Virus record (IMG/VR): IMGVR_UViG_3300045996_000773
Coordinates: 1 to 54,595 of that record
DNA length: 54,595 nt
Source of the DNA: a virus
Strand: one strand, 5' to 3'
In this document: in pieces, positions 1-54,595 of the stretch
Layout of the letters: every line of letters starts with the position of its first letter
How positions within the stretch are numbered: the stretch's first letter is position 1
The notes under the pieces: generated by a model
What the model saw: the letters and a program-made list of their open reading frames with translations, nothing else
The model's database searches: none
What the model was told of the DNA's origin: nothing
Translations under genes and position numbers: made by a program

Positions 1-142
1 CCTGGTCCCGCTGATCCTGGTCCCGCTGATCCTGGTCCCGCTGATCCTGGTCCCGCTGATCCTGGTCCCGCTGATCCTGGTCCCGCTGATCCTGGTCCCG
101 CTGATCCTGGTCCCGCTGATCCTGGTCCCGCTGATCCTGGTC
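1..142. repeat. 15-bp tandem array, left end
   Basis: Nine perfect head-to-tail copies of the 15-mer CCTGGTCCCGCTGAT (1-135) plus a 7-bp partial copy. The same array, same strand and rotated in phase, closes the other end of the window (54496-54595). The contig was therefore opened inside the array and the true copy number is unknown. The unit length is a multiple of three; the frame reading Pro-Gly-Pro-Ala-Asp is open through the array to a stop at 184-186, but no ATG precedes it. Confidence 0.97.
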
Positions 143-190: not shown

Positions 191-220
191 AATAAAAACC
201 CGGTATTGAAATACCAGGTT
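191..220 (-). terminator. Rho-independent terminator of the M20 peptidase operon
   Basis: Inverted repeat with arms AACC-x-GGTATT (197-207) and AATACC-x-GGTT (210-220), a 2-nt loop and one internal mismatch. On the minus strand it is followed by a T-rich tract (complement of the A run at 194-200). It lies about 20 bp beyond the stop of the leftward gene ending at 242, the position expected for the end of that operon. Confidence 0.7.
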
Positions 221-241
221 TGACCTAAACAATCTAAAAAT

Positions 242-1207
242 CTATATCTTCATTGTGTCCATAGCTTTCATACATTTATTGCACATATCGACATTATATT
301 CAGGGACGTAAGTCACGACGTCGGCAAGTTCACGGCAGCAATCACAATATTCAATCGGGACCGTCTTTATCTTGTCAGGAATGCCGTCCCAATCTCCCCA
401 ATTATCCCAACGGTCCAAATATTTATTGCCGCCTAAACTTGTCACGGACTTATAAACAGGCTTATCATAGTTGCAAACATAGGCCCGACCGTTTAACGTG
501 GTAATAATTTCAAATACAAAGTTCAAACATTTTAGAACGTCTGGGACGTTTACAAATTCATAAACTGAATGAGGGTTATAATATCCACAACTGATATTTG
601 CCATAGAACATTCAATGCTACATTGTTTAAGGGCCATGACATCAGTCATTAACCCAGATTCAAATTTATACCCGTATTTATTCAGGATGAATTTAACGTC
701 CCGTTGAAAATCTTTGTCAGATAATCTTACACCACCCGCTTTTGTAATAAAATCTTTGTTTCCCTTCCGATCACATTGAAGTACAAAACCACAATCCGAG
801 AAAAAATCGTCGTCAGGTTCATAACTTCCTTCACAACCAACTTCCTCGTCCCGAAAAAACGCAGCTTTAATATTTTCAAACTTTTCCAAACATTGAAGGG
901 CAATAAAAATACCCACTTTATCGTCGCCCCCGATACCAGTTTGAGACATGGTTACACTGTTAAAACCCGTTAGGTTATCGCCTATCTGAATAACTGTTAA
1001 GTCTTCGCAAATTTCGTGAACAGTGTCTAAATGAGAAACAATACAAGGGAATGAACTTGCATTCCCTTTTGTTACATATATGCAGCCATTATAGACGTAA
1101 TATTCACAGTCAATCTTTTTTAACTGTCTTATCACATAAGCGAACATTCTGAATTGATTATAAGATTCAGATTGAATTGATAATATGTCTGTTAATTTGT
1201 TTAGCAT
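242..1207 (-). CDS. M20-family metallopeptidase-like protein (peptidase T-like)
   Basis: A probable zinc-dependent aminopeptidase or amidase acting on small peptides or amides in the cytoplasm; no signal peptide is visible. All M20 signature positions are present: SHLDT (H59, D61), GGDDKVG (bridging metal Asp at 95), DEEVG (catalytic E121, metal E122), the Asp of QCDRKG (D146) and a late NPHS histidine (H213). At 321 aa it is shorter than bacterial PepT (about 400 aa). The C-terminal 40 residues hold four cysteines in C-x2-C and C-x2-C pairs (288/291 and 309/312), a probable extra zinc knuckle. It is the last gene of a three-gene leftward operon that ends at a terminator near 191-220. The substrate and benefit to the phage are unknown; the peptidase class is well supported. 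Confidence 0.85.
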   Translation of the reverse strand: MLNKLTDILSIQSESYNQFRMFAYVIRQLKKIDCEYYVYNGCIYVTKGNASSFPCIVSHLDTVHEICEDLTVIQIGDNLTGFNSVTMSQTGIGGDDKVGIFIALQCLEKFENIKAAFFRDEEVGCEGSYEPDDDFFSDCGFVLQCDRKGNKDFITKAGGVRLSDKDFQRDVKFILNKYGYKFESGLMTDVMALKQCSIECSMANISCGYYNPHSVYEFVNVPDVLKCLNFVFEIITTLNGRAYVCNYDKPVYKSVTSLGGNKYLDRWDNWGDWDGIPDKIKTVPIEYCDCCRELADVVTYVPEYNVDMCNKCMKAMDTMKI

Positions 1208-1218
1208 GTTAAATGTTT

Positions 1219-2520
1219 TTAGATTGTTACGCCTGCAGATTCCAGGTAATATTTCCCGTTAATTTCGACAACTTTATCACTGTCTTTATGGTACCACTTA
1301 TCGCCAATTTCAACTGCTTCACTTCTTAATACGTCCTCTCCATCGTCTTCGCAATAAACGCAATCATCCGATAAATAATAACAGCCATCACGTTCACAAT
1401 ATGTACAGTCTTCAGTTAAATAGTACTCATCATCTATGCAGCAAATATCGTCGTCGTCTTTTCTGTAATATTCGCCGTTAACACAAACAATATTATTGTC
1501 GTCTTCGTGGTACCAATCGTCGCCAATGTTAACCGCATTATTAACGTGACACGTTTGGTCCCGGTAGCGTCTTTCCCCTGCAGTAATAGTGCATGCATCC
1601 TCTTCGTCGATATATTCACCGTTTATGTCATCATATACCTGGCCCTCATTCTCGTCTTCGTCGCCGTCCCGGGTGCCCCCTGTAGAATTGTAAGTATATT
1701 TTCCTGAGTGATTATTTAGGGACCCGTCCTCGCCATAACAAAACGTGTCTATATAAGGATAGCTGTCAAAATCAGTTTCAGTATAAACAGTAAATTTTTC
1801 GCACATCATTTCACCAGCCGGATTAATGAAACACATTTTATCATTGTAGCCTTTATAATCTCGTTTGCGCCAAAGGTTATTTTCGACAGCGTATTGCAAA
1901 AATTTATCAAATAAAAAATCCTGAGTAACATAAATACGGTCCATTAATGTTATGTTATCTCTTAAACTCCAAACAAGGGACCGACCGCAAAGAAGACCTT
2001 CTTTATTTGTCAGGATAAGTATTTTTAAAGATTCACAATTGGTATAAATATCCATGTAATTACCTTGTCCGTTCATACAACTACCTGACAAACTACCTTC
2101 GCCAATGCCTATTTTCATTTCATCATAAACGAAAGGAATTTTTTCGGCTGGTAACAATTCAAATTTGTAGCCTGCATCATTAAAAGTCGCCTTATATTGA
2201 TTCGTGAAACATTCAAAATCAGCGTCTTTAAAATACTTCCAAACTCGAGGATGAAATAATTTTTTCATAACCTTTGCAGGTTTTCCGTTTTGTCTTCCGT
2301 CCCGCTTCCATGTCCCGTCGTCGTTTACAATATGGTCCTTGCCTGCAGGTAAATAACTGATTGTCCCGTCGTTTCTGAATGTCAGGAAATTAATTTCAGA
2401 ATCAGTTACCATTAATGAATGGTAATTTTTGCGGGCTAATCTGCAAAGTATTTTCGCAATAATGCAGTCCGAAGACTGCAAAAATTGTGAAAAGGAACGG
2501 GTGAAAATTAAGTTAGTCAT
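1219..2520 (-). CDS. Acidic phage protein of unknown function with C-terminal Asp/Tyr/Cys repeats
   Basis: 433 aa. I do not recognise a named family. The middle (about 140-215) contains GEGSLSGSCM and a segment ending MDRIYVTQDF; I recall similar stretches in uncharacterised phage proteins, but cannot check this. The C-terminal third (about 290-433) is very acidic and repetitive: units of the type WYH-ED and NGEYY alternate with Cys-containing units such as DDCVYCEDDG, which suggests repeated small metal-binding or calcium-binding folds. There are no membrane segments. It is the middle gene of the leftward operon, 11 bp from the peptidase gene. Base composition is unusual for the window: GGGAC/GTCCC words are frequent here. 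Confidence 0.7.
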   Translation of the reverse strand: MTNLIFTRSFSQFLQSSDCIIAKILCRLARKNYHSLMVTDSEINFLTFRNDGTISYLPAGKDHIVNDDGTWKRDGRQNGKPAKVMKKLFHPRVWKYFKDADFECFTNQYKATFNDAGYKFELLPAEKIPFVYDEMKIGIGEGSLSGSCMNGQGNYMDIYTNCESLKILILTNKEGLLCGRSLVWSLRDNITLMDRIYVTQDFLFDKFLQYAVENNLWRKRDYKGYNDKMCFINPAGEMMCEKFTVYTETDFDSYPYIDTFCYGEDGSLNNHSGKYTYNSTGGTRDGDEDENEGQVYDDINGEYIDEEDACTITAGERRYRDQTCHVNNAVNIGDDWYHEDDNNIVCVNGEYYRKDDDDICCIDDEYYLTEDCTYCERDGCYYLSDDCVYCEDDGEDVLRSEAVEIGDKWYHKDSDKVVEINGKYYLESAGVTI

Positions 2521-2836: not shown

Positions 2837-2867
2837 CAAATATAGAACTATTCAGGACCCATTCAAA
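2837..2867 (-). promoter_or_regulatory. Bacteroidota-type promoter of the accessory operon
   Basis: Reading leftward there is TTTG (complement of 2864-2867), a 19-bp spacer and TATATTTG (complement of 2837-2844), matching the Bacteroidota consensus TTTG / TAnnTTTG with standard spacing. Transcription would start near 2830 and run into the gene starting at 2760. A GTTCTA box overlaps the -7 element and a second lies just upstream of the -33 element. Confidence 0.75.
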
Positions 2868-3382: not shown

Positions 3383-3567
3383 CCTGATAATTTGGCCGGT
3401 CCCGAAGTTTCCGACCTTCCGACCGGCCAAGTTGGACCCCCATATGGGGGGGGCACCTGGTCAACGAGGGCCTTCCCCTACGTCCCGCTAACTTTATAAC
3501 TTATGAACTACGAAGTATTTCGTATATAGCCACATCGGCGATAATTACGTTGTAATTAAAATAATTA

Positions 3568-3583: not shown

Positions 3584-4936
3584 ATGGGGATCCAGGTGAA
3601 AACCGCTACATCACCCTTAACAGGTGAAAAACCTTTCCAGATTTTATATGATCTTCCGAAAGGTACGAATGTTGTCGTATGTATAGGCGGTCGCGGTGGG
3701 ATGAAAACTTATGAAGTATCAAAGTTTATCGCGTTCTCTTCCACAGTCAGGAAAAAGCGTTGTGTTGTTCTGCGGGATGAAAAAGAATTGATCCGTGAAT
3801 CGATCCTGAATGAAGTTCTATTAAGGTTCGATACCGCTAATACCGGCGGCAGATTGTCCGCAGAGTTCGACCGGCTCGATACCGGGATCAAGCACAGGCA
3901 GTCAAACGAAATGCTCGTCTTCACTAAGGGCTTCAGAGCCTCCCAGGTGGATAAGAAAGCAAACCTGAAGTCCATATCCAACGTGGATATAGCCGTTATC
4001 GAAGAGGCGGAGGACATTAGAGACGTTGATAAGTTCAACACTTTTGCTGATAGTATCAGAAAGGAGGACTCCCTTGTTATAATCATCCTCAACACTCCCG
4101 ACGTTAACCACTGGATCATAAAAAGGTACTTTAACCTGGTGCAAGTAGAGGACGGCTTTTACGAAATTGTGCCGAAAGACTTACCCGGCTTCGTATGCAT
4201 TAAGACAGGATTTGAAGACAACCCTTTCCTGCCGGAGCATATCGTTAAGCAGTACCGGGCCTACGGCGATCCGACAAGCCATCTGTTCAATCCGTTCTAT
4301 TACAGGACTGCGATCAAAGGACTTGCCAGCACAGGGCGGAAGGGCCAGGTGTTTACGAAGGTTAAGCCGATCAAGCTTGTCGATTATCTGGCCTTGCCGT
4401 TTAAGGAGTATTACGGCCTGGACTTCGGTACGGCCTCGCCTGCAGGGATTGTAGGGGTGAAGGTTGATAAGAATGCAGTGTACGCCCGCCAGCTGAATTA
4501 TAAACCAATGGTGACGCTGGAAATAGCCAAGTTCTTCTGCACCCTGGGGCTTAACCTGACGGATCTTATTGTCGCCGATAGCGCGGATCCGAAGAGCATA
4601 GCCAAGCTAAAGAAAGGATATACAGCTGACGACCTTTCCATTGATGAGTTTGTGAAGTACCCGGCTCTTGCCCGCGGGTTCCATATTGTACCAGCAAAGA
4701 AGGGTGCCGACTCGGTAGAATATTCGATAGGCGTGCTTGACAGCATGGAGTTTTACGTGGTGGAGGAAAGTGTTGACTTTTGGAACGAAGTCTTCTGCTA
4801 CATCTACGCCCAGGATAAGAACGGTAACTATACCAACGACCCGATCGATGAGTTTAATCACCTGATCGATCCAACCCGGTACGTCGTGATGCACGTCAGA
4901 CCGCACAACCGACCAGCACAGGCTTATGATGCTTAG
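3584..4936 (+). CDS. terL: Terminase large subunit (ATPase/nuclease)
   Basis: 450 aa, normal for the family. It is the motor that translocates DNA into the prohead and cuts concatemers. N-terminal ATPase: Walker A variant GGRGGMKT (35-42), Walker B IAVIEEAED (136-144) and coupling motif IIILNTPDV (about 166-174). C-terminal RNase H-like nuclease: YYGLDFG (metal Asp D280), IVADSAD (D332) and a late acidic region around DEFNHLIDP. The overall pattern resembles the Terminase_3/PBSX-type group. ATG is preceded by a near-adjacent -7 box, and the portal gene follows after one opposing small gene. Confidence 0.93.
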   Translation: MGIQVKTATSPLTGEKPFQILYDLPKGTNVVVCIGGRGGMKTYEVSKFIAFSSTVRKKRCVVLRDEKELIRESILNEVLLRFDTANTGGRLSAEFDRLDTGIKHRQSNEMLVFTKGFRASQVDKKANLKSISNVDIAVIEEAEDIRDVDKFNTFADSIRKEDSLVIIILNTPDVNHWIIKRYFNLVQVEDGFYEIVPKDLPGFVCIKTGFEDNPFLPEHIVKQYRAYGDPTSHLFNPFYYRTAIKGLASTGRKGQVFTKVKPIKLVDYLALPFKEYYGLDFGTASPAGIVGVKVDKNAVYARQLNYKPMVTLEIAKFFCTLGLNLTDLIVADSADPKSIAKLKKGYTADDLSIDEFVKYPALARGFHIVPAKKGADSVEYSIGVLDSMEFYVVEESVDFWNEVFCYIYAQDKNGNYTNDPIDEFNHLIDPTRYVVMHVRPHNRPAQAYDA

Positions 4937-21945: not shown

Positions 21946-24900
21946 ATGAAGAGAATCCTAATCCTATTAATACTTATAATCCCTACCCTATGTTTCTCTC
22001 AGGTTGTAACGCCCGACAGCAAATATGCAACAGGACATGTAAGAAGTATAAAGGACAGCGTTGATAGAATACCTATAGGATTAACAGGTAGTAACGACGG
22101 CAAGAGAATATCTATAACAGGCCAGGATACCGCGCAGATCCGTTACAACAAAGCGGATAGCTCTATTTATGTACATACAGGTACGCAGTTTATTAAAGTT
22201 GGTGGCGGCGGTGGCGGTGCCTGGGGTACGATCACTGGCACTTTATCAGATCAAACCGACTTACAAGCCGCGCTTGATCTTAAATTAAATATTTCCGATT
22301 CTGCCGCTATGCTCGCCAGTTACATTCACAGTTCAGGTTGGGGGCTAATAGAAGCAGGACAAGGATTGAAGGTTGATACTTCTTTAGTTGGTACTCGTAC
22401 TTATATTGAAGCACTCGTCGAAGCTAATAATAATACCCCTACACTTCAGCAAGTATTAGACGCAGGAAGTATATTAACATCAGATGAGACAATAAATGCC
22501 CAGGGTAATATGTTAGCTTTTACTGGCACAGATGATGTAATGTCTATTGCTAATACGGGAGCAGCAGCGCAGCCGCCATTATTTTTGAGCCGGTCAACAT
22601 CTGCAACAAGTTCACCAACATTAGTATCAAGATGGGACACATATACAACTGGTACAGCAGCAGCAGGATTTGGCGGTCAGCTTGGATTAGCGGTTGAAAA
22701 TGCTGCTGGCAATCTTATAACGACAAATCAAATTGATTGGAAGTATTCAACAGCAACGGGCGGTAATGAAACTACCTTAATAGATATTAAGGGAATGGAT
22801 AATGGCTCGTATGAATCATTAATGGAGATACAGAAAAATGGGATTATAAGAGTAAATAATTATTTAGATACTCTTGGAACAATGTCTTGGGTTCGCGCAA
22901 ACTTTAGCACAGGTGGAGGCGGTACTCAAAATCTTTCCTGGGATGCTACAAATCACGAAGTAGATATTTCTGGCGGTGGTACAAGTGCGATCATTCCCTT
23001 TGCTGATTTAACTACTGATGGACTTCTTACTGATGGGTTTCAAGAAATTGCTGGAAACAAATTTTTTAGTCATGCTGGTAGTTTTACTCATAATTCATCA
23101 AGTACAACGGGAGCGAAAATACCACTTGATTTAGTTGGTAATACTACTGGGACACCAGAGGCTGGAATAGGAACAGGATGGAGAACTACAATAGAAAGTT
23201 TAGGAGGTAATCAAATCGGAGCAACATTTGAAGCTATAATGACCGATGTTACAGATAATAGCGAAGATGTTGATTTTGTAATTAAGCTAATGGCCGGAGG
23301 TTCAGCAGCGGCAGAAAGATTCAGGTTTATAAGTACAGGACAATTAAAACTTCCTTTATACACAACTACAACTTCATTTACTGTTACGCCAGTGGGAATG
23401 TTAGTTTTTGATGCAAATGGAAATATAGGAACTCAGGCTATTAGTGGAGGTAGTTATACAAATGAAGAAGCACAAGATGCAGTAGGTACGATACTCAATA
23501 CAAATACTTTCAACTACGATGATGCCACCCCCGCTATCACCTTAAAAACTCAAATGAGTATTACCAGTGATGCGAGTGGAATAAAACTTTCCGGTGATGC
23601 GGCTTCGCCGGGCAACACTAAATATTACGGAACCAACTCAGTTGGCACAAAAGGATTTTATGATTTAGCTGGTGTCTCATGGAGCGGTATAATGCAAGGT
23701 ACAGCGGTTTATAACACTTCACAGACATTAGCCACAGGAGTGGGTTATGATTTCGATGGAGCATCCCCAGCCACGTTTACACTTCCTTCCCTATCTACCA
23801 ACTTCAATAGATTGTATTTTATTAAAAACAGGGGAAGCGCAACGCTTACAGTCGCAAGGGATGGAACGGATAATATCTATACAACTTCGTCAGTGACTTC
23901 ATTTACACTTGCGCCTGGTGAACACGCAATAGTGAGGGCGCAAGGTTCTGCAATTTGGAGTGCGCATCAGGTAATCGGTGAAGTTGACGGAAGTACAAGC
24001 AACGAACTACAGACTATAAACAATACCAGTGATGCAACCAGTCATACAGTTACGCTTTCAAATTCAGGTGGCACTATTCAGTTTATCGAAGGAACAAATA
24101 TTACCCTGACAACAGGTGGTACGGGTGCAGCGGGAACGCTGACCATTGCTTCAACTGGTAGCGGCTTTACAAATCTTACTCAATTCGTATCGCAAACAGC
24201 ACATAGATTATTTTATTCAGATGCAAGTGGTGATGTGCAGGAACTTGCTTTTGGAACAAGCGGTCAATACTTGAAAGCAAACGGTCTTACAACTGCGCCT
24301 TCATGGGACACGCCCGCAGGAAGTGGAACAGTAAATGCAGGAGCAGCTTTAAAGGCGGCTTATTATCCTTCTGCCGCTGCGCTTGTTGATGATTGGATAG
24401 GAGTTGAATTTGGGAATACAAACTTGAACACTAAAATAATTGCGCAGGCCACAACCGAAGTTGGTTTACAAATATCTTTAGCTGATTTGGCAACAGCTAA
24501 TGCTTTTGAAATTAAAAATAGTGGTGGTACTAATTTAATGAAGATTACAGCAGACGGTGAACAAATAGCTTCTACGCTATCAGACCAGGGGGATTACGAT
24601 ATGCAGTTAAATAAGGGAATGTATGTTGCGAATGTAAGCGCCACTGAATATGGTCTAATAGTTAGCTCAAGTACTGGGACAGCCGATGTTTTCGGAATAG
24701 GTAACGGTAGCGGTAATTGGGTAATAGGCACTGTTGCTGGTTCAAAAGGGGTAAGCATGAATAGCGGAGCGGGTTACAATTTTAATTTTTCTAGTCAAGC
24801 AAGACACGCTTTTACCGCAGCAGGAGCGTTGATAACTGGCAATTCCATTGGATTCTTTAATCCAGACAGAACATTGCATGTATATGACCAGACCGGAACA

Positions 24901-36786: not shown

Positions 36787-37956
36787 TTGAATAAGATATC
36801 CTTTATTTTAAAGAACCCTAACACTGATCCCTCGGCAATATTACTGCTTTTTACCTGCTATGACGGAAGATTAAAATACTACACAGGTGAAAAGGCTGGA
36901 TCGAAATGGCCTGACGTGGACGACGGTACTGCGGCTCAACTGGATCGGATAAAACGGATCGTCCGTGAAATGCATGTCGATTATAAGATCAAAGGAGAGC
37001 CACTTACAAAGGCATTGCTGGCCTCTTCTTTGGATAAGGCCCTGCATAAGAAAAAGCCGACTTCTACAAATCTGTTTACCGCAATGCGCCAGGTAGTGGA
37101 GAAAATGCGAATTGGCGAAATACTTACCCCCGATAACAAGATTTACGCAAAAGGTACTATAAAAAACTTCAACTTTTCGATCGATGTTCTCGAAAAGTTC
37201 CAACCCGACATGACGATCAGAAGTGTATCGATCGACACTTATAAAAAATTCATCACCTGGTGCCAATCAAAGGACTATTCGACAAACTACATAGGCGCGC
37301 AGATCAAGAACTGGAAAACCCTGGGCCGCGCCATCGGCGGCAATCCGATCTTTGATGACGAAGAGTTTAAGAAAATACAAGAAGCCACTTCTGACGTTTA
37401 CCTGGATGAAAAGGAACTCGGCGCAATTATGAGGCTTAAACTCCGCAACCGGGAAAGCCTTGCTCGGGATTGGTTCATTCTGGACTGCTATACAGGCCTG
37501 CGCGTTTCAGATCTTGTAGTTCTCAATAAAAAGAACTACCACAACGGCTACATAACTATAGCTAATGAGAAGACGGGTGCAAAGGTAGTGATCCCTTCCC
37601 ACCCGATCGTAAAGAAAATACTGGGCAGGTACAAAGGTTTTCCGCCGCCAATTACCGACGTGGAGATAAATAGAACTATTAAGAAAGTTGCTGAAAAAGC
37701 AGGCATTACTGAAAAAGTTCTATTTACGATCACTAAAGGCGGCAAGCGTAAAGATTCTTATATGCAAAAATGGGAAATGGTGAGCAACCATACTGCCCGG
37801 CGCAGCTTTATTACAAATCTCAGGAAAAACGGAGTAGCTGATAGTATTGTGATGAAGTTGACCGGGATCCGGTCAGCAGCTACGCTGCAGCGCTATGATA
37901 AGTTGTCTGCTGATGAGGCAGCGAAAATTGCAGCAAAGCTGAAGTTTTTTAAATAA
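36787..37956 (+). CDS. int: Tyrosine-type site-specific integrase
   Basis: About 389 aa. No ATG exists near the expected N-terminus; TTG at 36787 (giving MNKISFILKNP, the usual beginning of Bacteroidota integrases) is preferred over TTGs at 36763 and 36775. Order: arm-binding domain (1-50), SAM-like core-binding domain (about 90-185), catalytic domain (about 205-389). Active-site residues with this start: R239 (GLRVSD), K262 (ANEKTG), H335 and R338 (NHTARRSF), Y370 (LQRYDKL). All are present, so it should catalyse integration. It is convergent with the repressor gene. Confidence 0.92.
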   Translation: MNKISFILKNPNTDPSAILLLFTCYDGRLKYYTGEKAGSKWPDVDDGTAAQLDRIKRIVREMHVDYKIKGEPLTKALLASSLDKALHKKKPTSTNLFTAMRQVVEKMRIGEILTPDNKIYAKGTIKNFNFSIDVLEKFQPDMTIRSVSIDTYKKFITWCQSKDYSTNYIGAQIKNWKTLGRAIGGNPIFDDEEFKKIQEATSDVYLDEKELGAIMRLKLRNRESLARDWFILDCYTGLRVSDLVVLNKKNYHNGYITIANEKTGAKVVIPSHPIVKKILGRYKGFPPPITDVEINRTIKKVAEKAGITEKVLFTITKGGKRKDSYMQKWEMVSNHTARRSFITNLRKNGVADSIVMKLTGIRSAATLQRYDKLSADEAAKIAAKLKFFK

Positions 37957-38269
37957 TTATTTTATCCCTCTTTAGAGTAGCCTCTAAGGTTCTTATAGTA
38001 TCTTTCAGCTGCGTCAGTGTATCAGCTGACTTCTTGAACCGCATTTCGTTATCCAGCCCAAAGATCCAGTTCACGTTTATCTTATACTTCACGGCAGCGG
38101 CGTGTATTTGCTCAATGGTAAAAGATTGGCTGCCGTTTTTTACCTGGCGTAAGTTACTTGGCTGAAAATTGATACTTTCCAGGAACTCTTTTTGCGTGTC
38201 ACACAGTTCTAGGTCCATGCAATGCCGCATTAGTAGCAGGATGCGCTGATCCCATACTTTTAGTTTCAT
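37949..38269 (-). CDS. HTH-type transcription regulator (XRE-like)
   Basis: 106 aa. An N-terminal HTH region (DTQKEFLESINFQPSNLRQVKNG, summarised: helix, turn, recognition helix, about 24-47) is followed by a WIFGLDNEMRF motif shared with Bacteroidota XRE-type regulators and a C-terminal helix that may dimerise (TLTQLKDTIRTLEATL). The 3' end overlaps the integrase end by 8 bp. One of two HTH proteins on this strand, hence a candidate repressor or antirepressor of the lysogeny circuit. Confidence 0.75.
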   Translation of the reverse strand: MKLKVWDQRILLLMRHCMDLELCDTQKEFLESINFQPSNLRQVKNGSQSFTIEQIHAAAVKYKINVNWIFGLDNEMRFKKSADTLTQLKDTIRTLEATLKRDKIII

Positions 38270-48737: not shown

Positions 48738-51203
48738 ATGCCAATACCTAAGATTACCCACGACGGTCCGCTGGACATTGCTACCGGCAGGCACAGAAGA
48801 GAATCAAATTGGAAGAATAAACAAACCCTATGGAGTGCATTACTTGAAAAGCTATCCACTACACACCGGACAGCAGAGTCATACGCTGAGTACCTCGCCG
48901 CCAAGAAGCCCCGCCAGGATGAGATCAAAGACATAGGCGGCTTTGTAGGCGGATATCTTGACAAAGGCAAGCGCCGCAAGAACTCAATACTCAACCGTCA
49001 GCTGATCACGCTCGACGCTGACTCGCCTTCGCAAGACTTATGGCCCGACTTCAAGATGTTCTATGACAACGCTGCCTGCATTTACTCAACCCATAAGCAT
49101 AGCCCTGAACTGCCACGCTACCGGCTGATCCTCCCACTTGACCGTGAAGTAATGCCGGATGAGTACATAGCCATCGCCCGCAGGCTTGCTGGCAGTATAG
49201 GCATCGAATACTTCGACCCGACTACCTACCAGCCTGAGAGGTTAATGTACTGGCCCTCCACTTCAAAGGACGGTACTTACGTGTTCGAGGCTCAGGACGG
49301 TCCCTGGATCTCAGCCGATGCCATCCTTGCCACCTATCACGATTGGCGCGACTCTAGCGAGTGGCCGATGAGTGACCGCGAGAGATCCATCCCGCTACGT
49401 GCTATAAAGAAGCAAGGCGATCCGCTGGAAAAGCCGGGCATCATCGGCGCGTTCTGCAGGACCTATAATATCCATGAAGCTATCGCTGAGTTTTTACCCG
49501 ATGTGTATGAACCTTGCGATGTTAATGATCGGTACACCTACGCAATGGGATCCACGGCGGGCGGACTTGTTGTGTACGATGATAAGTACGCTTATAGCCA
49601 TCACGGGACCGATCCAGTCTCCGGCAAGCTATGCAACGCGTTCGATCTGGTCCGGCTGCATAAGTTCGGCCTGCAGGATGAAGACGTAAGGGAAGGGGCG
49701 AAGGCGACGGAGTTGCCAAGTTATAAGGAAATGATCGTTTTCGCCTGTAAAGATCCCGCTACCAGCAAAACGCTAAGTATGGACAAGCTTGAAGAAACAG
49801 AAGCCGACTTCGCGGACGACCTGGTAGATGCGCCGCAGGCTGAAGAAAACCTGGATTGGCTGTCCGATATCAAAAAGGATAAACAGGGCAGGGCCACCCA
49901 AACGATAGAGAATGTAATAATCGTTCTGAATAACGATACCGCGCTGAAGGGTAAGTTCGCCTACAACGAGTTCGAGGGCCGGGAAGTAGCTACCGGCAGA
50001 CTGCCCTGGCGTCACGATAAAAACACCAGCCCGCATTTAACTGATACCGATGATGCCGGTCTGCGCCATTACCTTGAAAAGCGGTACGACCTGTCTTCAG
50101 CTAATAAAATCAAAGACGCTCTGGATATAGTTATAAAGAAGAACAGTTTTCATCCGGTACGGGAATACCTGTCTGCTCTGCAGTGGGACGGCGAAGAAAG
50201 ACTTGAAACGTTGCTCATAGATTACTTAGGCGCTGAAGATAATATTTACGTAAGAACCGTAACGCGGAAAGCACTGGTGGCGGCCGTTGCAAGGATATTC
50301 CAACCAGGTATTAAGTTCGATAACATGCTTACGATTGTAGGGGATCAGGGTATCGGTAAAAGTACAATCCTCAGTAAGCTTGGCGGGAAGTGGTTTTCCG
50401 ACAGCTTCAATTTCCACATGTTAAGCAGTAAGCAAGGCGAGGAACAGTTAAGAGGCGCGTGGCTGGTAGAAGTGGGAGAACTGACAGGCCTTTCAAAAAC
50501 AGACGTAGAAAGCGCCAAAAGCTTCTTATCGCGTTGCGAGGACCGCTACAGAGTAGCCTACGGTAAAAGACTTGAATACTTCCCCAGGCAGAACATTTTC
50601 TTTGGATCCACGAATAATAAAAGGCCTTTACGCGATTCATCCGGAGGCAGGCGCTTTTGGATAGTTGTAACCGACGCGGATAAGGCTACCAAGAGCGTTT
50701 TTGACGGTCTGACGCAGGATGATGTTGACCAGATTTGGGCAGAGGCTTACACGTATTACGAATCAGGGGAATCGCTTGTACTGTCGGCAGAAGTAAAGAC
50801 AATGGCTGAAGCCATGCAGCAAGAACACACAGAGGCAGATGATCAGGCAGGAGTGATAGCAGATTACCTGGAAATTTTGCTACCTGAAAGGTGGGAAAGT
50901 ATGGACGTGTGGCAACGCCGGGATTGGTTGAAAGGCGAGGACGAACTTTCGGAAGCAGGTACTATAGAAAGAACGCATGTAAGTGTAGCGGAAATATGGT
51001 GTGAACTAATGGGTGGAACTATTAAGGATATGACCAAAAATAACACCAAACATATACACGATTACATGCAGCAAAGGTCCGGTTGGAAGATGGGTAAAAA
51101 GACAAAAAGATATAAGCTTTACGGTACTCAAAGAGTGTACGAAAAACGTGTAAACGAAGTCCAAAAAATTGTAAACAAGCGTAAACGAGAGTTGCAACAC
51201 TGA
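48738..51203 (+). CDS. Primase-helicase (AEP-like N-terminus, VapE-type helicase)
   Basis: 821 aa. N-terminal region (about 75-200): LITLDADSP (D93, D95) and YSTHKHS, consistent with an archaeo-eukaryotic-primase-like active site. C-terminal helicase (about 440-740) of the virulence-associated E type: Walker A GDQGIGKST (535-543), acidic Walker B region around LVEVGEL and an arginine-rich FFGSTNNKRPLRD segment. Together it would unwind and prime DNA as the main replication initiator. Its last codons run into the TGTAAACG repeat array. Confidence 0.88.
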   Translation: MPIPKITHDGPLDIATGRHRRESNWKNKQTLWSALLEKLSTTHRTAESYAEYLAAKKPRQDEIKDIGGFVGGYLDKGKRRKNSILNRQLITLDADSPSQDLWPDFKMFYDNAACIYSTHKHSPELPRYRLILPLDREVMPDEYIAIARRLAGSIGIEYFDPTTYQPERLMYWPSTSKDGTYVFEAQDGPWISADAILATYHDWRDSSEWPMSDRERSIPLRAIKKQGDPLEKPGIIGAFCRTYNIHEAIAEFLPDVYEPCDVNDRYTYAMGSTAGGLVVYDDKYAYSHHGTDPVSGKLCNAFDLVRLHKFGLQDEDVREGAKATELPSYKEMIVFACKDPATSKTLSMDKLEETEADFADDLVDAPQAEENLDWLSDIKKDKQGRATQTIENVIIVLNNDTALKGKFAYNEFEGREVATGRLPWRHDKNTSPHLTDTDDAGLRHYLEKRYDLSSANKIKDALDIVIKKNSFHPVREYLSALQWDGEERLETLLIDYLGAEDNIYVRTVTRKALVAAVARIFQPGIKFDNMLTIVGDQGIGKSTILSKLGGKWFSDSFNFHMLSSKQGEEQLRGAWLVEVGELTGLSKTDVESAKSFLSRCEDRYRVAYGKRLEYFPRQNIFFGSTNNKRPLRDSSGGRRFWIVVTDADKATKSVFDGLTQDDVDQIWAEAYTYYESGESLVLSAEVKTMAEAMQQEHTEADDQAGVIADYLEILLPERWESMDVWQRRDWLKGEDELSEAGTIERTHVSVAEIWCELMGGTIKDMTKNNTKHIHDYMQQRSGWKMGKKTKRYKLYGTQRVYEKRVNEVQKIVNKRKRELQH

Positions 51204-51423
51204 ACACCCGTTTGTAAACGTGTAAACGAAAATGTAAACGAGATTTTGGCAGATAGTTTACGCTAACTCACCTGAACAACAACTTTTAATATGAAATGTA
51301 AACGTGTAAACAAGAAATACTATATAAGGATAAAAATATAGGTATAGCGTATATATGCGTATATATATACCCATAAATAGCCTATTACGTATAATCCTCC
51401 AAAATCTCGTTTACACGTTTACA
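51149..51423. repeat. Iteron-like TGTAAACG array around an AT-rich core (origin candidate)
   Basis: GTAAAC-type boxes at 51149, 51170, 51181, 51213, 51221, 51233, 51297 and 51305 read forward; TGTAAACG pairs are tandem at 51213-51228 and 51297-51312. CGTTTACACGTTTACA (51408-51423) is the inverted copy, with a single inverted box near 51256. Between the converging pairs lies an AT-rich stretch (51313-51400) with TATATAAGG and alternating TATATA. Directly downstream of the helicase gene, this is a good replication-origin candidate. Confidence 0.75.
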
Positions 51424-51442
51424 AATGCTAAAAACTTAAGAT

Positions 51443-53234: not shown

Positions 53235-53507
53235 TTACTTCGATAAACCTGGTTGGGCCTGCAGCCTGTGTGCTTTAAACCAGTACATGGCCCTTTTGAG
53301 CATCGATAATTGCGCCGGGCAATCGGATCCTTCACAGTTAGAAATGGTCAAGTACCAAACTTCATTACCTGCATCAAGTTTCAGGTATGAATCAGTTGGC
53401 GGCTTTTTACTTACTTCGATAATCGCCAGGGGGTGCAGGCAGTGTACTATGTACAATCCTGACACGCCTTCGCGTATCGGATTGTACGCTAATAGAAATT
53501 TGTCCAT
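53235..53507 (-). CDS. Small protein, unknown, interwoven with the CTTCGATAA repeat
   Basis: 90 aa, read leftward. Cysteines near 24 and 58-63 (ISNCEGSDCPAQ). A TTACTTCGATAA repeat lies inside the gene (53411-53422), another forms its stop and last codons (53235-53246), and a third lies just upstream of the start (53524-53535). The coding sequence has therefore been invaded by, or grown from, repeats. Convergent with the SNF2 helicase gene. Confidence 0.55.
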   Translation of the reverse strand: MDKFLLAYNPIREGVSGLYIVHCLHPLAIIEVSKKPPTDSYLKLDAGNEVWYLTISNCEGSDCPAQLSMLKRAMYWFKAHRLQAQPGLSK

Positions 53508-53523
53508 AATGTAAATTTAAAAG

Positions 53524-53535
53524 TTACTTCGATAA
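53524..53535. repeat. TTACTTCGATAA repeat upstream of the 90-aa gene
   Basis: Perfect copy 16 bp upstream of the start at 53507. The same 12-mer occurs at 53235, 53411 and 54353, and with one change at 54376. Confidence 0.85.
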
Positions 53536-53546
53536 TCCCGATAAGC

Positions 53547-54341
53547 CTACTGGCTATGCAGTTCTTTACCGGATCTTCTAATATAAGAGCCTTTCGTAAA
53601 TTCCTCAATCCAAATAAGTTTGTAGTCCTTTCGACCAGGACCGCAGGGCTGCACACGGAAATGTCCGCGGACCGTAAATTGGCCGTTTACAATGATAATT
53701 TTATTCCAATGAGCATTGACCAGGTAAACGTTTTTTAGGCCGGTGTCGTTTAAAAGCTTATCATCACCACCTTTCCCGTATTTGATTTTACTACCCGGGC
53801 TTAGTTTCAATTCCTTTATTTCGCTAAGTTCCATGAATAGTAAAAGCTTTATAAATCTATGGGCCATTGCTTGGTCCTGGGTAGGCAGTGTCTTTATTTC
53901 TTCACGTTCCAGATCCAGGGCGAAGCCTTCATATTGTACCATTTCAGCGAGGCCTTCACCGTGTTTATAGTATTGTAGGACCGTTATACGCAGCCCTTCC
54001 TTATTGAACCTGAAAAATTCCTTTTTACCAGTTATGTACATAGAACGCTGGTCCTTTATTTGCCGGAGCCACTTCATATTAGCTGCCTGGTATTTGATCA
54101 TTGCGGCCTCATCCTGGGCGGCTTTTGTCAGGTAGTACATTTTAAGCCTGTTTGAATTACACAGATCCTCTATCGCCTCCATTCGCCCGAGCATCCATAA
54201 AGCCCGGGAGGTTGAATCGGCGTTTGCCATACCGGGATCCAGGTCCATTTGCCGACCGCTGGAATGTTCCTTAGTAAAAAAGTCTTTAAGGAAACTGTCA
54301 GTCTCCCAAAGAACGCCAAGAAAAGAATTATTCAGTTTCAT
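53547..54341 (-). CDS. Uncharacterised phage protein
   Basis: 264 aa. The start is taken as the ATG at 54341 (MKLNNSFLGVLW); an in-frame ATG at 54401 would read across the repeat array and is unlikely. Helical N-terminal two-thirds, then a beta-rich C-terminus with VRGHFRVQPCGPGR and LIWIEEFTKGSYIRR, a pattern I recall from uncharacterised phage and integrative-element proteins. A TTACTTCGATAA repeat lies 11 bp before the start, and the 15-bp and 23-bp arrays lie upstream, so its expression may depend on them. Confidence 0.65.
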   Translation of the reverse strand: MKLNNSFLGVLWETDSFLKDFFTKEHSSGRQMDLDPGMANADSTSRALWMLGRMEAIEDLCNSNRLKMYYLTKAAQDEAAMIKYQAANMKWLRQIKDQRSMYITGKKEFFRFNKEGLRITVLQYYKHGEGLAEMVQYEGFALDLEREEIKTLPTQDQAMAHRFIKLLLFMELSEIKELKLSPGSKIKYGKGGDDKLLNDTGLKNVYLVNAHWNKIIIVNGQFTVRGHFRVQPCGPGRKDYKLIWIEEFTKGSYIRRSGKELHSQ

Positions 54342-54354
54342 AATTATATTTTTT

Positions 54355-54400
54355 ACTTCGATAAACGTGGTGGGCCTACTTCGATAAACGTGGTGGGCCA
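54355..54400. repeat. 23-bp tandem repeat, two units
   Basis: ACTTCGATAAACGTGGTGGGCC plus T or A, at 54355-54377 and 54378-54400. A 24-bp diverged copy lies at 53237-53260, at the 3' end of the 90-aa gene. It shares the core CGATAA with the neighbouring array. Confidence 0.9.
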
Positions 54401-54490
54401 TTACCGATAAGTCCCGTCAGGCATTACCGATAAGTCCCGTCAGGCATTACCGATAAGTCCCGTCAGGCATTACCGATAAGTCCCGTCAGG
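54399..54490. repeat. 23-bp tandem repeat, four units
   Basis: Four exact units of CATTACCGATAAGTCCCGTC plus AGG, contiguous. The core TTACCGATAA resembles TTACTTCGATAA of the preceding array. The first bases of the next array (CATTACCG then CTGATCC) share its beginning. Confidence 0.95.
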
Positions 54491-54495
54491 CATTA

Positions 54496-54595
54496 CCGCT
54501 GATCCTGGTCCCGCTGATCCTGGTCCCGCTGATCCTGGTCCCGCTGATCCTGGTCCCGCTGATCCTGGTCCCGCTGATCCTGGTCCCGCTGATCC
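54496..54595. repeat. 15-bp tandem array, right end
   Basis: Six full 15-bp units (54496-54585, CCGCTGATCCTGGTC phase) and a 10-bp partial copy at the end. It continues the array at position 1 after circularisation, so the complete array has at least about 16 units. Confidence 0.95.

Follow-up and report, generated by a model that had tools for sequence, protein, structure and literature searches.

A one-orientation 12-mer and three perfect tandem arrays in a probable leader region of a circular phage genome

In Cluster K mycobacteriophages, the Start-Associated Sequence (SAS) is an asymmetric 13 bp sequence that lies just upstream of start codons, nearly always in one orientation, and may overlap the stop codon of the preceding gene; there are 11 to 19 copies per genome, 3 to 7 bp from the start and containing AGGAG, and their function is unproven (PMC3203893). 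The stoperators of Cluster A mycobacteriophages such as L5 are asymmetric 13-mers as well. They occupy short intergenic spaces, in an orientation that follows transcription, at more than 20 sites through the genome, and are bound by a known repressor (PMC9283540). In phage TLS and T1-like phages, 21-nt intergenic direct repeats follow the direction of transcription, with 18 intergenic copies across the genome, about 76 bases upstream of starts and a function that is unknown (PMC11447400). The 17-bp repeats of Cluster O illustrate that short phage repeats in and between genes can persist without known function (PMC4351075). Here we describe a dispersed 12-mer that resembles some of these elements and adjoins three tandem arrays in a previously undescribed phage genome.

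The window, that is, the whole stretch of DNA analyzed, is the complete virus record of 54,595 bp. Its ends overlap exactly by 92 bp (or by 77, 62 and so on, owing to a 15-bp period), all within one tandem array of a 15-mer, array C. Because the window ends inside a single 15-bp array with an exact overlap, the record is a circular map that was cut within array C, splitting it in two. This circular reading is backed by a 47 kb contig (L017), in which a single uninterrupted stretch holds homologues of the window's right-end helicase and of its left-end peptidase, partner and terminase genes. The genes identified (TerL, portal, tail, endolysin, a tyrosine-recombinase-type integrase, DNA polymerase A, a VapE-like primase-helicase and an SNF2-type helicase) indicate that the phage is siphovirus-like, integrase-bearing and probably temperate.

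A preliminary description had placed three families of tandem repeats at the ends of the window. TRF recovered all four array segments at 100% match, with the unit lengths and copy numbers given there:

54354..54399, no strand assigned: array A, TACTTCGATAAACGTGGTGGGCC, 23 bp, 2.0 copies, perfect
54399..54498, no strand assigned: array B, CATTACCGATAAGTCCCGTCAGG, 23 bp, 4.3 copies, perfect
54496..54595, no strand assigned: array C, right part, CCGCTGATCCTGGTC, 15 bp, 6.7 copies, perfect
1..142, no strand assigned: array C, left part, the same 15-mer, 9.5 copies, perfect, continuous with the right part on the circular map

In a direct scan of the 54.6 kb (period 8 to 60), B and C were the sole perfect tandems of at least three copies. 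The arrays are GC-rich, array C reaching 67% against 43% for the genome. Collapsing the 92 bp overlap gives array C 150 bp and 10 units, and smaller overlaps give more; C thus has at least 10 units, and the copy numbers of C, and possibly also of B, are lower bounds. The earlier warning that copy number cannot be trusted was sound, the record being cut inside array C. The arrays had also been called nested, but they lie side by side, sharing 1 base at the A/B joint and 3 bases at the B/C joint. A successive expansion had been proposed. In pairwise local alignments, the units scored no better than shuffled units (p = 0.31 for A-B, 0.51 for A-C and 0.24 for B-C), so neither such an expansion nor a common origin of the three arrays is supported. 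Contrary to the earlier description, B has the unit TTACCGATAA, lacking the two "nn" bases, and so does not contain TTACnnCGATAA. Only array A is demonstrably related to the dispersed 12-mer, with a match of about 26 nt to the copy at 53235 (p = 0.0075 beyond the core).

Six-frame translation of the joined ends found no started ORF through A, B and C. We rejected a coding tandem repeat, the arrays lying outside any gene's ORF and the 23-bp periods shifting the frame. Arrays A, B and the right part of C folded as RNA no better than shuffles, and Rfam gave no match at gathering thresholds. The 15-mer was not found in viral_contigs, nor the arrays in the phage collection (where the BLAST low-complexity filter may conceal matches), nor an array with the adjacent gene in plasmids. 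A methylation or restriction decoy, considered for the GATC, CCTGG and GGTCC words in the 15-mer, was set aside because the remainder of the genome shows no depletion of them. An invertible segment was likewise discarded, as units B and C have no match of 11 bases or more elsewhere on either strand.

The dispersed element is the 12-mer TTACTTCGATAA, which reads TTATCGAAGTAA on the coding strand of the leftward genes. As described before, it occurs in four perfect copies and one with a single change, reaching back to 53235, where one copy ends a gene:

53235..53246, minus strand: 12-mer encoding the last residues (LSK) and the stop codon of leftward ORF 53235-53507
53411..53422, minus strand: 12-mer within ORF 53235-53507, in a reading frame different from that of the 53235 copy
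53524..53535, minus strand: 12-mer 16 bp upstream of the start codon of ORF 53235-53507
54353..54364, minus strand: 12-mer 11 bp upstream of the start codon of gene 53547-54341, beginning array A
54376..54387, minus strand: 12-mer with one change (CTACTTCGATAA on the plus strand), in the second unit of array A

All five local copies lie on one strand, and the motif is asymmetric. Allowing one mismatch, only 0.33 occurrences are expected by chance in the whole window; a sixth match, with one mismatch, lies far away at 24083, and none of 100 shuffles reached six. When the 1.1 kb region was simulated 500 times under a first-order Markov model, four copies were never attained by any 12-mer. Apart from the match at 24083, the motif is confined to about 1.2 kb (53235-54387). 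The copies at 53235 and 53411 occupy different coding frames, which points to conservation of the DNA rather than of a protein. Each of the 12-mers before the starts at 54341 and 53507 is followed by an A/T-rich stretch and then ATG. Among 189 loci, the only exact 12-mer beyond the window's own sequence is one in L066, and with this single outside copy selection on the 12-mer is not demonstrable.

Like the SAS, the 12-mer is asymmetric, has a single orientation, precedes start codons and in one copy covers a stop codon. Unlike the SAS, it has five copies in 1.2 kb, carries no Shine-Dalgarno sequence and stands 11 and 16 bp from two starts rather than about 3 to 7 bp, the other copies lying in a gene, at a gene end and in array A; its confinement to 53235-54387 also differs from the spread of the SAS over the non-structural half of the genome. 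Its orientation fits transcription, as with stoperators, but it is local where stoperators are numerous across the genome. With the T1-like 21-nt repeats it shares orientation and placement between genes, again differing in being local and in lying closer to the starts. As the genome-wide distribution that defines these three systems is missing, we do not class the 12-mer with any of them.

The genes and signals around the arrays are as follows:

196..221, minus strand: hairpin with a T-rich tail, likely intrinsic terminator of the upstream operon (58-nt segment, fold z = -3.3 versus shuffles)
242..1207, minus strand: phage peptidase, phrog_4191, weak M42 similarity, neighbor of the arrays on the upstream side
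1219..2520, minus strand: peptidase partner, 433 aa, no family match; the pair recurs in many phages
2837..2867, minus strand: weak promoter-like site of Bacteroidota type, TTTG-N19-TATATTTG, upstream of the peptidase operon
53547..54341, minus strand: gene of unknown function, 264 aa, with the arrays in its leader; homologue in L105 and L189
53235..53507, minus strand: second leftward ORF, 90 aa, no family match

Read along the minus strand, the order is partner (2520-1219), peptidase (1207-242), hairpin (221-196), arrays C, B and A, the gene 54341-53547 and the ORF 53507-53235. The arrays therefore lie upstream of the leftward gene starting at 54341, as had been stated, and this start is backed by the L105 homologue, which starts with MKLN at the same place. 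The hairpin is absent from the list of a consensus terminator scanner. Three Bacteroidota-type promoter patterns occur in the window against 2.4 expected, and the array gap contains neither a canonical Bacteroidota promoter nor a sigma-70-like leftward promoter. As a single-sequence query, gene 53547-54341 had no close relatives in viral_contigs or phages; an alignment-based search found one distant locus, and the predicted structure of the product has a pLDDT of 34, too low to be of use. The partner gene as a single query gave no match. A strong inverted repeat (AATTTGGCCGGTC/GACCGGCCAAGTT), located at 3389-3433 between the TerS candidate and TerL, is a possible packaging or terminator element.

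The peptidase and its partner (242-2520) form a two-gene cassette that is found in many phages in either gene order; in L017, the pair is inverted relative to the helicase. Among cellular assemblies, the closest cassette carriers are Sphingobacteriales MAGs, which hints at, but does not prove, a Bacteroidota host for the phage. L109, with a helicase of 57% identity, is missing the whole module: a small HTH-like gene comes after its helicase, and then the terminase genes (read from the sequence). By these gene orders, the module is accessory.

We compared the gaps beside this cassette in related phages. An absence of such repeats from this locus in relatives would have counted against the observation, and here the outcome was divided: none of the relatives matched the window's repeat units, but unrelated arrays occupy the matching gap of L017 and the gaps of other cassette carriers. 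In six loci (L017, L018, L024, L031, L045 and L084), as in the window, short tandem repeats fill a long gap adjoining the same peptidase and partner, and in L045 and L017 more than one unit type stands side by side. These loci differ from the window in having no unit sequence in common with it, and most of their arrays are less perfect. The L017 arrays (27 bp in 2.9 perfect copies, then 24 bp in 4 copies) lie well within the 47 kb contig, which shows that such arrays are not mere end artefacts. A close parallel to the window is found at L045 4429-4707, where adjacent arrays of 15, 39 and 19 bp precede the partner gene. Two other arrays were excluded from this comparison: an 18-bp array of 15 copies at a contig end (L015 1-276), which encodes an STIGDN-type hexapeptide repeat, and a 15-bp array in L125, which is readable as a pentapeptide-type (ANLED) coding repeat (frame read by eye). 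Across 23 non-redundant loci, an array was present in seven of the eight long gaps near the cassette versus four of 17 elsewhere (Fisher p = 0.007), and in 7/37 versus 5/88 gaps of at least 100 bp (p = 0.04); with a length bin chosen after the data were seen and crude gene prediction, this enrichment is suggestive.

The best explanation, in which our confidence is about even, is that the locus is the non-coding stretch at the head of a leftward transcription unit of two genes in the accessory module, made up of a 12-mer leader element, its duplication as array A, and arrays B and C expanded by slippage. TTATCGAAGTAA, 11 to 16 bp before both start codons, would most likely be a short cis element that acts either on a regulator's behalf, as its site, or in the leader during translation. 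Array A would be a leader copy of the 12-mer that was duplicated, whereas B and C would be unrelated short sequences amplified by replication slippage between the upstream terminator and the leader, serving mainly as spacer and perhaps modulating the promoter. This reading is supported by the arrays filling the gap from the terminator-like hairpin to a homology-backed start codon, and by the 12-mer preceding both leftward genes of the unit in one orientation. A promoter or leader role had been suggested before, and it is plausible in that the hairpin closes the preceding operon. The 100% identity of the array units is expected of recent slippage. With two leaders only, and two copies within or at the end of a gene, the association of the 12-mer with leaders could be partly chance. 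The lack of either promoter type in the array gap also weighs against this reading, as does the near-absence of the exact 12-mer from the other loci. The sequence itself shows the positions, the exact repeats, their orientation, the circularity of the record, the terminator-like hairpin and the leader placement; that the 12-mer is regulatory and that B and C arose by slippage is what we infer from it.

It is possible, although we consider it doubtful, that all repeats including the dispersed 12-mer are neutral, the arrays being a minisatellite that a non-coding gap tolerates, accompanied by minor duplications in its vicinity. A, B and C are mutually unrelated, the units of relatives have no sequence in common with those of the window, and the four array-bearing long gaps among the 17 away from the cassette show that tandem repeats arise elsewhere in related phages; all of this is as neutral turnover would have it. 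The 12-mer fits less well, as it is kept without change in both leaders and in two coding frames, in a single orientation.

That same asymmetry and single orientation, together with placement at gene boundaries, recalls stoperators (PMC9283540), and the core of array B, TTACCGATAA, is a near-palindrome. The arrays might accordingly be sites for a phage regulator (an operator, stoperator or enhancer array) acting over the leftward genes, with copy number setting the strength. We regard this as unlikely: the surroundings of the likely immunity genes (37.9-38.8 kb) contain no 12-mer, exact or with one mismatch, outside the local cluster there is none save at 24083, and three unrelated unit types would require three binding specificities. 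Among the phage's own regulators, HTH-type proteins are encoded at 37949-38269.

The recurrence of arrays beside the peptidase pair allows a further reading, in which cassette edges repeatedly build and keep arrays of ever different sequence and the array itself is functional, as a spacer, an insulator or a recombination point for cassette exchange or inversion. We judge this quite improbable.

Binding by an iteron-, ParB- or packaging-type protein had also been suggested. Short tandem repeats are typical of iterons and centromeres, and the arrays do lie in the segment between replication and packaging genes. A role as replication origin, partition or packaging site is nevertheless very improbable. 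A distance of 3 kb separates the GC-rich arrays from the VapE-like gene, and an AT-rich iteron-like cluster with inverted copies lies at 51140-51430, between the VapE-like primase and VRR-NUC genes, a place at which relatives also carry 9-13 bp tandem repeats. No ParA or ParB gene was matched among the 30 window proteins (a subset of ORFs) scanned with PHROGs. From the join it is about 3 kb to the terminase genes (TerS candidate at 2966, TerL at 3584), and L109 passes from helicase to terminase genes without the whole module.

The cluster at 51140-51430 holds seven of the window's 14 TGTAAACG units (2.2 expected in all), direct and inverted around an AT-rich element, and a 19-nt perfect inverted repeat (51211-51229/51407-51425). 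It is a better candidate for the replication origin than the terminal arrays. Different 9-13 bp tandem repeats occupy the VapE/VRR-NUC gap in seven other loci (L120 4202-4244, L137 5498-5531, L141 3113-3148, L142 5421-5547, L152 5536-5567, L155 5313-5359 and L187 5303-5328), and this gap is a candidate conserved position for iteron-type origins with changing units.

Finally, that the arrays or their multiplicity are an assembly artefact of repeats looping at a contig end is hard to credit: the contig does end within array C with 92 or 77 bp overlaps possible, perfect unit identity is what a collapsed loop would yield, and the lengths of left C (142 = 127+15) and B (100 = 77+23) fit a k = 127 or k = 77 graph loop (arithmetic, not proof), but such a loop requires a real tandem repeat of at least k, which makes the arrays genuine whatever their true count. 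Array A and the dispersed copies fall below the length at which looping would matter, and comparable arrays lie inside the L017 contig.

The observation is real but fairly ordinary. The locus is probably no new system but a leader or regulatory region that slippage has expanded. That the circular map was cut at its most repetitive spot calls for caution in describing repeats at contig ends as terminal repeats or packaging ends. The 12-mer offers a small, testable leader motif, and the data hint at a recurrence of array-filled gaps next to one phage cassette, irrespective of the sequence of their units.
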